DNA of 64,000 bases, taken from contig NZ_CP070950.1 of NCBI RefSeq assembly GCF_017084525.1, positions 496,001 to 560,000 on the forward strand, in the 5' to 3' direction. A program made the position numbers and the translations under genes. Below the pieces are notes generated by a model, which worked only from the letters and a program-made list of their open reading frames with translations, was not told the DNA's origin and ran no database searches. This DNA comes from Conexibacter sp. SYSU D00693. Its GTDB lineage: Bacteria; Actinomycetota; Thermoleophilia; Solirubrobacterales; Solirubrobacteraceae. The stretch's first letter is position 1; each line of letters opens with the position of its first letter. Below are positions 7,039-18,707 of the stretch, in pieces.

Positions 7039-7449
7039 GCTCCGCTGGGGCGCTCCGGGTGCCTCGGGTGGTCGTCGCTCGGCATTGAGGAGAGGGAGCG
7101 CAATGCGCCTCGCGTCCTCCGCCGGCGGTCGCGGGGTCCGGCGGCCGTAGGTGGGGACTCGGCAAGCGGCTCGAGCTCTCGCTGGCGCGTTGCCGCTCTC
7201 GACGTCCGTGACCCTGAAGTTGACCGCCATGTAGGCGGTCAACTCCAGGCTCGCGGTCGTGCGGCCCCGAACGGTTCGCGCCGGGCGCCACCGTGGCTGG
7301 CGCCCACCCTCCTTCGGTGCAGATCCGCGACCGCGGCGAACCCTGCGACGAACCGTGCGGAACGCCACCCCCGTCCGCTGCACGCCTCCGTCGCCGCAGC
7401 CCGCCTTGCAGCGGCAGGCGGCGTCCCCACGGCGTCGAAGCCGCACCGG
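7039..7449. other. Non-coding gap with hairpins and one dispersed repeat
   Basis: No credible gene is visible in these 411 bases. It holds a small inverted repeat (GCATTG at 7082-7087 with CAATGC at 7101-7106), the dispersed palindrome at 7210-7258, and a second perfect hairpin at 7283-7305 (GGGCGCCA with TGGCGCCC around a seven-base loop). An in-frame extension of xerD further upstream has no similarity to the Xer family. Confidence 0.7.
7210..7258 (-). repeat. Solo copy of the dispersed palindromic repeat
   Basis: This 49-base element matches the two repeats that flank the AbiEi/DUF559 gene at 17.7-18.7 kb and has the same orientation as the right-hand one. Bases 7213-7249 fold into a 16-bp stem with one mismatch and a five-base loop (ATGTA); the inner ten pairs, GTTGACCGCC with GGCGGTCAAC, are perfect. 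No nuclease or transposase gene adjoins this copy. It lies between the NUDIX gene and xerD. Confidence 0.8.
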
Positions 7450-17493: not shown

Positions 17494-17504
17494 GCGTCTC
17501 AAGC

Positions 17505-17575
17505 TGCGGGGGTGGGACTCGAACCCACAACCCTTCGATTAACAGTCGAATGCTCTGCCATTGAGCTACCCCGCA
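17505..17575 (-). tRNA. tRNA-Asn (anticodon GTT)
   Basis: All four arms fold from the minus strand: acceptor TGCGGGG with CCCCGCA, D arm GCTC/GAGC, anticodon stem TTCGA/TCGAA around CTGTTAA, and T arm GTGGG-TTCGAGT-CCCAC. It is 71 nt and the CCA end is not encoded. The inverted-repeat mobile unit begins about 130 bases upstream of it. Confidence 0.97.
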
Positions 17576-17704: not shown

Positions 17705-18661
17705 GTGTTCCGCGAGCCTGAGGTTGACCGCCGCAGAGGCGGCGAACTCCAGGGTCGTCGGCGTGAGGTCGCCATCAGCGCCCTGGCCGGGACGCAGAAG
17801 GGGGCGGTCAGCCGCCAGCAGCTCGCGATGCTCGGGCTCGGCGACGACGCGATCGCCTCGCGGCTGGCGGCTGGCCGACTGATCCCGCTGCACCGCGGCG
17901 TGTACCTCGTCGGCCATCGAGCGATGCACCCGCAGGCGCCGTGGATGGCCGCCGTGCTGGCGGGCGGCGACGGGACGGTGCTCAGCCACCGCTCCTGCGC
18001 GGGATTGCGGGCGCTGTTGCCGGTGCCCTCCGGCGACATCGACATCACCGTCCCCGATGAGCGTGGCCGCGGCCGAGCCGGGCTGCGGGTGTGCGTGCGG
18101 GAGCTGGTCCCACAAGATCGCGATGCGGTGGACGGCATCCCGTGCACCTCGGTCGCGCGGACGCTGCTCGACCTCGCCGAGCGAGTCCGGCCCTCGCTCC
18201 TCACCGCCGCCTGCGAGGCCGCGGTCCGCGAGGGGCTCTTCGACGCATCCGCGATCGCCGAGGTCCTCGACCGGTGCCGCGGGCATCGAGGCGCCAGGCG
18301 GCTGCGCATCGCCGTCAGCGAGCTCACCGACGACCCGGATGTCCTGCGCAGCGAGCTCGAGCGGCGGCTCAAGGCGCTGCTCGAGGGCTCGGCACTGCGA
18401 CAGATGCCCCGCTTCAACCGCCACGCAGATGGCGCCTCGGGCACGTTGTGGGAGGTCGACGCGCTGTGGCGCGCGCAGCGACTCGTGGTCGAGGCAGACA
18501 GCTGGGCGTTCCACGGCACCCGCAGCGCCCGGGATCGAGACGCCAACAAGCAGCGCGACCTGGAGGCCGCCGGGTGGGAGGTCTGGCGCGTCACGTGGAA
18601 GGACGTCCACGCCGGGAGGGTTGCGCTCCTCCGTGCCCTGGACCGTCGCACCCGCCGGTGA
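17705..18661 (+). CDS. AbiEi-type winged-helix / DUF559 (Vsr-like) protein
   Basis: A 318-residue two-part protein. Residues about 20-95 match the N-terminal AbiEi antitoxin-like winged helix (GAVSRQQLAMLGLGDDAI, HRGVYLVGHRA). The C-terminal 90 residues match DUF559, related to Vsr mismatch endonucleases, with acidic positions Glu250, Asp252, Glu263 and Asp265, and ANKQRDLEAAGWEVWRVTW. Nuclease activity is inference. The only usable start is GTG at 17705, so the left palindromic repeat encodes about the first 17 residues (FREPEVDRRRGGELQG). Its stop touches the right repeat. Codons such as CGA, GCA and GAT are commoner than in neighbours, hinting at transfer. Confidence 0.8.
   Translation: MFREPEVDRRRGGELQGRRREVAISALAGTQKGAVSRQQLAMLGLGDDAIASRLAAGRLIPLHRGVYLVGHRAMHPQAPWMAAVLAGGDGTVLSHRSCAGLRALLPVPSGDIDITVPDERGRGRAGLRVCVRELVPQDRDAVDGIPCTSVARTLLDLAERVRPSLLTAACEAAVREGLFDASAIAEVLDRCRGHRGARRLRIAVSELTDDPDVLRSELERRLKALLEGSALRQMPRFNRHADGASGTLWEVDALWRAQRLVVEADSWAFHGTRSARDRDANKQRDLEAAGWEVWRVTWKDVHAGRVALLRALDRRTRR
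17709..17756 (+). repeat. Left 48-bp inverted repeat (palindromic)
   Basis: This matches the reverse complement of 18660-18707 at all but two of 48 positions. Internally it folds as a 16-bp imperfect hairpin with loop GCAGA. It spans the first codons of the AbiEi/DUF559 gene. Similarity continues outward more weakly (a GGCGCC-containing stretch) on both flanks. Confidence 0.85.
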
Positions 18662-18707
18662 CCCTGGACTTCGCCGCCTCTGCGGCGGTCAACTTCAGGC
18701 TCGCGGA
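18660..18707 (-). repeat. Right 48-bp inverted repeat (palindromic)
   Basis: Reverse-complement partner of the repeat at 17709, with loop TCTGC. It fills the space between two convergent genes: the AbiEi/DUF559 stop ends at its edge, and the TGA of the glycosyltransferase on the minus strand (18695-18697) lies inside it. Confidence 0.85.

Follow-up and report, generated by a model that had tools for sequence, protein, structure and literature searches.

We describe a gene of Conexibacter sp. SYSU D00693 whose product joins an AbiEi-type DNA-binding region to a predicted nuclease domain of the Vsr/EDxHD type; the gene lies between two near-identical copies of one palindrome, further copies of which are scattered singly ("solo" copies) through the same genome. 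Several paralogues and many relatives carry palindromes of their own in the same two positions, and at one locus of a relative the complete palindrome-gene-palindrome cassette alternates with a solo palindrome. We think it probable, on the strength of sequence comparisons, that these are self-contained nuclease-palindrome units, in which the nuclease would recognize its own palindrome and the gene would be gained, exchanged and lost through it. The combination suggests an undescribed kind of selfish DNA unit.

The window is the whole stretch of 64,000 nucleotides that was analyzed, and positions are counted from its first base. The features discussed below are:

17705–18661, plus strand: gene of 318 aa encoding the AbiEi-type DNA-binding region and the Vsr/EDxHD-type (DUF559/MTES_1575) nuclease domain (open reading frame with GTG start; Pfam)
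17712–17758, no strand: 5' copy of the palindrome (P42), within the first codons of the gene, just past the GTG (palindrome search)
17774–18298, plus strand: AbiEi region, residues 24–198 (PADLOC AbiEi model, E = 2.8e-28; Pfam AbiEi_4 at residues 24–69)
18350–18655, plus strand: nuclease domain, residues 216–317 (profile hits; invariant residues)
18658–18704, no strand: 3' copy of P42, which holds the stop codon TGA at 18659–18661 (palindrome search)
7208–7254, no strand: solo P42-family copy elsewhere in the window (genome hit 503207–503252)

An AbiEi-nuclease gene between paired palindromes

The two ends of the unit (17709–17756 and the reverse complement of 18660–18707) are identical at 46 of 48 positions, each hairpins by itself (−24.3 and −20.9 kcal/mol, z about −2.3), and a single reading frame (17705–18661) lies between them, as the initial annotation of this DNA had described; the element itself is about 47 bp, which corrects the 48 bp given there. 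A repeat search stretches the arms to 65 nt at 89% identity. The 5' and 3' flanks of the gene match each other with a score of 53; the best of 200 single-letter shuffles scores 23. At a score of at least 18 this gene alone has paired flanks among the 42 genes of the window (called with an ad hoc gene caller), the runner-up reaching 15.5. The GTG start is the sole ATG, GTG or TTG within the first 48 codons of the open frame, and since the 5' copy of P42 begins 7 bases past the first base of this codon, it is translated. The neighbors of the gene are a sigma factor gene, tRNA-Asn and a glycosyltransferase gene, with the tRNA-Asn gene (17503–17575, minus strand) lying just upstream of the nuclease-palindrome unit.

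In the window protein, Pfam AbiEi_4 and DUF559 lie above their cut-offs and MTES_1575 lies below its curated cut-off. The genome encodes ten members of this family including the window gene (two further weak rows were excluded), all ten of which are matched by PADLOC AbiEi models. A Pfam scan of the ten recovered seven families at E ≤ 0.1 (AbiEi types, MTES_1575, DUF559, RepB_primase_C and HEAT_2): AbiEi_4 is found in 10/10 members, MTES_1575 in 10/10 and DUF559 in 9/10 (in the C-terminal third; E 0.1), and RepB_primase_C and HEAT_2 in one member each. There was no HUH transposase family among the Pfam families of the ten members at this threshold, nor any transposase family among the Pfam matches of the window gene product and its ten-member family.

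Searched against solved structures at E ≤ 0.01, the ten-member profile matched 3hrl (an endonuclease-like protein, 1.8e-5) and 3r3p (a mobile intron protein, 0.0036), the latter of which we take to be the catalytic domain of I-Bth0305I. Six residues (E219, D252, E263, D265, H270, and D279) are invariant in all ten members and, judged from the family, are putative catalytic residues. The Vsr model TIGR00632 matches one member of the ten, at E = 0.1, and the family shows weak matches to anti-phage nucleases. A structure model built from the single sequence had a mean pLDDT of 44.8, too poor for use.

Gene-specific palindromes and their solo copies

The 4.43-Mb genome has P42 at 20 places: the window gene accounts for two, and the other 18 include the copy at window positions 7208–7254. 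Thus, the solo copies that the initial annotation had envisaged exist. The same repeat was also looked for beside the paralogues, and none of its places (E 0.001 or better in one search) lies within 3 kb of the nine other members. P42 is therefore literally absent next to the other DUF559 genes, yet five of the nine carry a different palindrome pair in the same places, and because these five and many relatives have pairs of their own, the absence does not refute the idea of a nuclease tied to its flanking palindrome. In an alignment, the two closest paralogues (70% and 67% identical) have a different palindrome in the same two positions. A matching end pair is found in six of the ten members (L042, which is the window gene, L043, L044, L046, L047, and L051), the sequence differing from pair to pair and each pair beating all 200 shuffles. 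The ends of L045, L048, L049, and L050 do not match each other beyond shuffles, though a 5'-end palindrome is present in L045, L048, and L049. L062, picked up by the DUF559 model alone and examined as an eleventh locus, is without matching ends; an unrelated hairpin adjoins it.

Three palindrome families were searched within the window genome, namely P42, P44 (the palindrome of L044, at 13 places, 11 of them solo) and P46 (that of L046, at 9 places, 7 of them solo; 40 of 66 candidates scored). A fourth, P137, belongs to the gene L137 of genome G027; its 27 hits resolve into 15 places, of which the gene accounts for two. The four families (P42, P44, P46, P137) measure 47, 49, 49 and 51 bp, with 7 to 18 solo copies each. 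Restriction to a single genome was examined for two palindromes, P42 and P137, across 61 genomes (the window genome and 60 relatives). For P42, the window genome alone matches at E 0.001, with 15 of 29 candidates scored there, so that its own-genome count from that search is a lower bound, and with six congeners in the set that are distant (best homologue of the protein about 43% identical). P137 has no hit in the other 60 genomes, in a search that scored 15 of 26 candidates and in a set that holds no congener of G027.

The solo copies have sharp edges and mostly unrelated flanks. Among 35 solos of the three families of the window genome (a count from which the copy at 7208, found later, was left out), 17 fall in convergent gaps, 14 in tandem gaps, none in divergent gaps and 4 in a called gene, as called with the ad hoc gene caller. 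Convergent gaps make up 13% and divergent gaps 20% of the intergenic bases in the window; taking this one window as the base, the chance of 17/31 intergenic solos being convergent is 4.6e-8 and that of 0/31 being divergent is 0.001. With none of the 31 in a divergent gap, the solos do not look like a regulon, and a reading of the palindromes as a regulon of operators was rejected on their position. The nuclease motif was found within about 1.5 kb of none of 46 solo loci (35 in the window genome and 11 in G027); all four positive controls show it. Compensatory change in the solo arms was not above shuffles in any of the four families, in a count that left out L013, L018, L020, L091, L097, the gene-flanking copies and solos without a fetched locus. 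A hairpin kept by compensatory change had seemed apparent by eye in P137, but the counts do not exceed shuffles.

Solos of the unrelated families P42 and P44 lie less than 300 bp apart at three places (G000:C1:39393/39492, 909306/909367, and 196943/197202), as if some gaps collect palindromes. Same-family solo pairs 150–290 bp apart occur at G000:C1:1214170 and 1214447, at 3788224 and 3788513, and at 3076849 and 3077003; the first two pairs have common flanking sequence, pointing to local duplications. Pairs around unrelated genes, had they been common, were named at the outset as evidence against the unit, and for the three families in the window genome they are not: the other close P42 or P46 pairs are less than 300 bp apart and therefore too close to enclose a gene of such size.

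Homologues at E 1e-10 were found in 46 of the 61 genomes, up to 11 per genome, and 79 loci were analyzed (10 from the window genome, 29 from this search and 40 fetched). A palindrome with a score of at least 13 is centered between −80 and +20 of the match start in 27/79 loci, the other 100-bp bins along the start axis holding 0–3; along the end axis, the two gene-end bins hold 11 and 8 of 78 and the other bins 0–4. At a score of at least 20, the two flanks (5' and 3') of one gene match in 25/78 genes (six from the window genome) versus 0/624 mixed-gene pairings; at a score of 18 the figures are 27/78 and 1/624. No pair was seen in 53/78 genes at score 20, and none in 4/10 own members at the shuffle threshold.

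At the level of the phylum, the family profile (E 1e-15) matches 144 of 396 sampled genomes. Outside the class, 32 genes were analyzed: in 19 the ends match at score 20 and in 13 they do not, versus 0 of 320 mismatched pairings; the 32 comprise 13 genes from the phylum search, whose own-class loci were unused, and 19 of 20 fetched (L243 was dropped at a contig end). Six plasmid records hold relatives, and in the one examined the palindromes are paired: plasmid NZ_LR134454.1 of Tsukamurella tyrosinosolvens has a DUF559 gene with a copy of one palindrome on either side (score 34.5). No relative in phage or viral DNA emerged from two scans of viral contigs and one phage search, and phage carriage of the family was discarded on these results. 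A related-loci search of genome contigs gave three loci; L103 (at a contig end, with its 5' side unreadable) and L104 have no paired palindrome, and L105 encodes a different, long protein. In one relative (L230, genome G404), the 5' flank consists of two tandem palindrome copies about 55–60 bp apart and the 3' flank of the same doublet (match score 92), an arrangement that resembles a BIME. The nuclease gene has an in-frame stop in some copies (L278 and rows of genomes G024, G014, and G017), so these units decay.

The palindromes are placed in a recurrent way at both gene ends. A 5' palindrome was recorded at 59 loci with a score of at least 10, a lax threshold that admits some chance ones, and an in-frame start lies in or near the palindrome in 51 of them, no more than 4 bases from its center in 28/51. 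Across those 28 loci, positions −39 to −34 are G in 18 to 25, positions −13 and −12 are each C in 19, position −11 is T in 21 and position −10 is A in 12. This recurrent G-rich stretch, with CCTA-like bases at a fixed distance before the start, suggests the promoter of a leaderless transcript. The sequence GGGGGGCGA is absent from both strands of the window. The window gene, L043, L044 and most genes of the L235 locus (described below) have their stop codon inside the 3' palindrome; in others the palindrome lies downstream of the gene. An excerpt of a published study reports that AbiEi binds a 49-bp site in its own promoter, made up of two 23-bp inverted repeats with 3 bp between them (PMC7319586), and the length and position of the palindromes described here fit such operators.

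Occupied, solo and empty sites at one locus of a relative

The initial annotation had suggested a comparison with empty sites in sister strains. Such sites were found in sister species of a relative, not at the window locus. The relative is genome G341, from a densely sampled genus of the same phylum (g100), whose L235 locus has the order palindrome-gene-palindrome. The joined flanks of L235 match 288 of 297 genomes of the genus at E 1e-10, among the matches listed mostly via the upstream half. Thirty L235-type loci were read out of the 288 matching genomes: 14 hold the nuclease gene (recognized by its motif, and interrupted by a stop in L278), 8 hold a solo palindrome and 8 hold neither. Among the solo-labelled sites, the palindrome scores 10–17 in L255, L260, L261, and L267 and is degenerate (5–8) in L263, L265, L269, and L272. 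Alignment is good on both sides of the solo in L255, L263, L267, L269, and L272; a short part of the downstream flank aligns in L260 and none of it in L261 and L265. L255 has 52 bases where L257, L258, and L259 hold 1011–1012 bases with a palindrome at both ends, the end palindromes being of the L255 type in L257 and L259 and of another type in L258. The palindrome at this locus gives last codons and a stop both to the upstream reading frame and to the nuclease gene, and it therefore shapes the 3' end of the neighboring gene.

A tree of the upstream flanks (22 rows, with 42% of the columns filled in L256) requires no fewer than five changes between gene and solo states; gene-bearing rows lie on both sides of the midpoint root, and the gene label is weakly clustered (50 of 500 shuffles were as low). 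Repeated loss leaving a solo palindrome would most simply account for this tree, although such counts cannot separate gain from loss. The nuclease tree joins L257 and L259 (100/100), whereas the flank tree groups L257 with L255, L258, and L256 (100/99). This conflict points to cassette exchange, and since L257 and L259 also share their palindrome type, the cassette was probably exchanged between hosts.

Across 13 genes of the locus (L278 dropped), the distance between 3' palindromes tracks that of the nuclease domain (r 0.77, p 0.003) and not that of the flank (r 0.23, p 0.14). For the DNA-binding part the correlation is r 0.41 (p 0.02), with p 0.17 once the nuclease domain is allowed for. The DNA-binding domain as the palindrome's specific partner had appeared suggestive by eye in eight close genes, and was set aside as not significant after the nuclease correction. 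At E 0.001, the L257 palindrome matches 18 of 30 genomes of the genus, at the L235 locus or elsewhere, and is therefore common to several species and not private to one genome; many of the matches are at 78–80% identity and may represent a related type. Among 30 loci of this palindrome that were read, 9 have the nuclease motif within about 1.5 kb (some being the two ends of one gene) and 21 do not.

A proposed cycle, its rivals and its closest known counterparts

We propose that the AbiEi-nuclease, presumably as a dimer, would recognize its own palindrome of about 50 bp as two half-sites of about 23 bp with a short spacer, the half-site and spacer geometry being that of the published AbiEi operators; that the palindrome is the protein's site is a prediction we make with considerable confidence. 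The 5' copy covers the start and, in a number of relatives, a promoter-like stretch, so that binding probably represses the gene, a step that we regard as likely. The 3' copy provides the stop codon in the window gene and several relatives, and the solo palindromes elsewhere would be recognition sites. There, the nuclease would nick or cut, which we hold to be somewhat more probable than the contrary, and repair or recombination between copies would insert the cassette at a solo site in a homing-like manner, or delete it and leave a solo. Since the palindrome is nearly the same on both strands, an inverted pair amounts to a direct pair, and end-to-end recombination could remove the gene and leave one copy. 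Occasional copying would spread palindromes to new places, although whether nuclease action is what causes their dispersal is, in our estimate, an even question. We infer binding, autorepression, cleavage and the role of the nuclease as the cause of movement from the patterns described above. If the nuclease cut some 20 places in the chromosome, the cell should die, unless the enzyme makes nicks, is kept under tight repression or acts conditionally.

The most serious competitor, which we consider possible though distinctly less likely, takes the palindromes as operators and terminators only. The protein would then be an autoregulated DNA-binding factor, with the 5' copy as its operator, the 3' copy and solos as bidirectional terminators or protein-bound gene boundaries, and a nuclease domain that drives no movement. 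The start codon within 4 bases of the palindrome center in 28/51 loci, with the promoter-like stretch ahead of it, agrees with this view, as does the autorepression of AbiEi proteins via such sites described in the excerpt cited above (PMC7319586); solos at convergent gene ends, where 17 of 31 intergenic copies fall versus 13% of the window's intergenic bases, equally suit terminators. However, plain terminators are not expected to match at both ends of one gene or, as seen for two palindromes, to stay in 1 of 61 genomes, and the putative catalytic residues are invariant in 10/10 members. The alternation of cassette and solo at one locus and the apparent exchange of cassettes between hosts also count against operators and terminators alone, and the absence of intergenic solos from divergent gaps (0/31) is unlike a regulon. 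A second possibility is that an unlinked transposase spreads the palindromes as REP- or MITE-like elements, and that the gene merely borrows one as operator and terminator. Discrete elements of 47–51 bp, most copies of which have unrelated flanks, and at least three solo families in one genome speak for such spread, but every paired member has a palindrome of its own in these two positions and the two palindromes queried in 61 genomes are confined to the genome of their gene, and we judge this account improbable.

AbiEi is part of a type IV toxin-antitoxin and phage-abortive system, every one of the ten members has a PADLOC AbiEi match, and the family has its weak anti-phage nuclease matches; an addiction or phage-defense module, with a repressed nuclease toxin and palindromes serving as operator and decoys, is nonetheless improbable as well. 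The window gene is neighbored by the sigma factor gene, the tRNA and the glycosyltransferase gene rather than by AbiEii, the viral contig and phage searches found no relative, and 8 of the 30 L235-type loci keep a solo palindrome or its remnant without the gene, unexpected for an addictive gene. The genome is G+C-rich and unrelated hairpins do occur in it (as beside L062), but chance hairpins are hardly credible as an explanation in view of the shuffle, mismatched-gene, positional and window-gene controls.

We compared the proposed nuclease-palindrome unit with known systems. REPtrons have a gene with its own palindromes and many intergenic solo copies, according to an extract of the literature on them (PMC8266576), and here, too, one gene is tied to its own palindromes, a pair flanks the gene, and solos are many and mostly intergenic. 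The initial annotation's idea of a REPtron-like unit without a transposase is in keeping with the palindrome pair around one nuclease gene, the solos in the same genome and the empty sites in sister species of a relative. Unlike a REPtron (REP with the TnpA-REP/RAYT HUH transposase), the unit has an AbiEi-nuclease in place of an HUH protein, no HUH family having been found, and no GTAG or CGTC is shared at the edges of P42, P44, P46, and P137. The palindromes also differ in being 47–51 bp in the four families, in their double-stranded-operator geometry, and in showing no significant compensatory arm change. The absence of a transposase family from the matches of the gene product likewise separates the unit from DDE and HUH insertion sequences.

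Genes for EDxHD homing endonucleases such as I-Bth0305I, which acts as a dimer on a target of nearly 60 bp according to a review excerpt (PMC3943268), resemble the unit in a putatively related nuclease domain (profile hits to 3r3p, E = 0.0036, and 3hrl, E = 1.8e-5), a very long putative target, and occupied and empty forms of one site (here at the relative's L235 locus). In contrast to them, insertion leaves the putative target intact with a copy at each end, the targets are dispersed palindromes instead of a conserved gene, and the DNA-binding part is AbiEi. The AbiE type IV toxin-antitoxin shares the AbiEi region and, judged by length and position, a palindrome of about 23-3-23 over its own start, but no AbiEii (DUF1814) adjoins the window gene, a nuclease is fused, and the operator-like site is also found 3' and dispersed. 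The Vsr mismatch endonuclease has a distantly related nuclease domain (DUF559/Vsr-like), from which the single TIGR00632 match among the ten members (E = 0.1) sets the family apart. Thus, the unit is not a REPtron because it has neither an HUH family nor GTAG, not a classical homing gene because its putative site is preserved at either end, and not an AbiE pair because the window gene has no AbiEii next to it; in its proposed working it resembles the first two, but it lacks a defining feature of each. In searches of the open-licence literature, the titles and abstract openings of the papers listed gave no description of such a nuclease-palindrome unit; the DUF559 literature seen in this form includes a Vsr-like protein of Caulobacter (PMC12907096).

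On a phylum-wide reading, to which we give even chances, selfish units of this sort form a large, undescribed class: each site-specific AbiEi-nuclease would mobilize and amplify its own palindrome (about 50 bp), and new target specificities would arise repeatedly, so that one genome would hold several nuclease-palindrome families that do not interfere with one another and that each have copies scattered about. The HUH protein of REPtrons (RAYT) is the best-known gene-linked route for scattered palindromes in bacteria; if our reading is true, there would be a second such route, which combines an antitoxin-type DNA-binding region with a homing-type nuclease. It would also give a function to a common "unknown" annotation (DUF559/AbiEi-family), the family being present in the 144 of 396 sampled phylum genomes noted above. 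The units would further offer many natural pairs of a long DNA site and a nuclease, of differing specificity, and would allow tests of how a selfish nuclease comes to switch targets.
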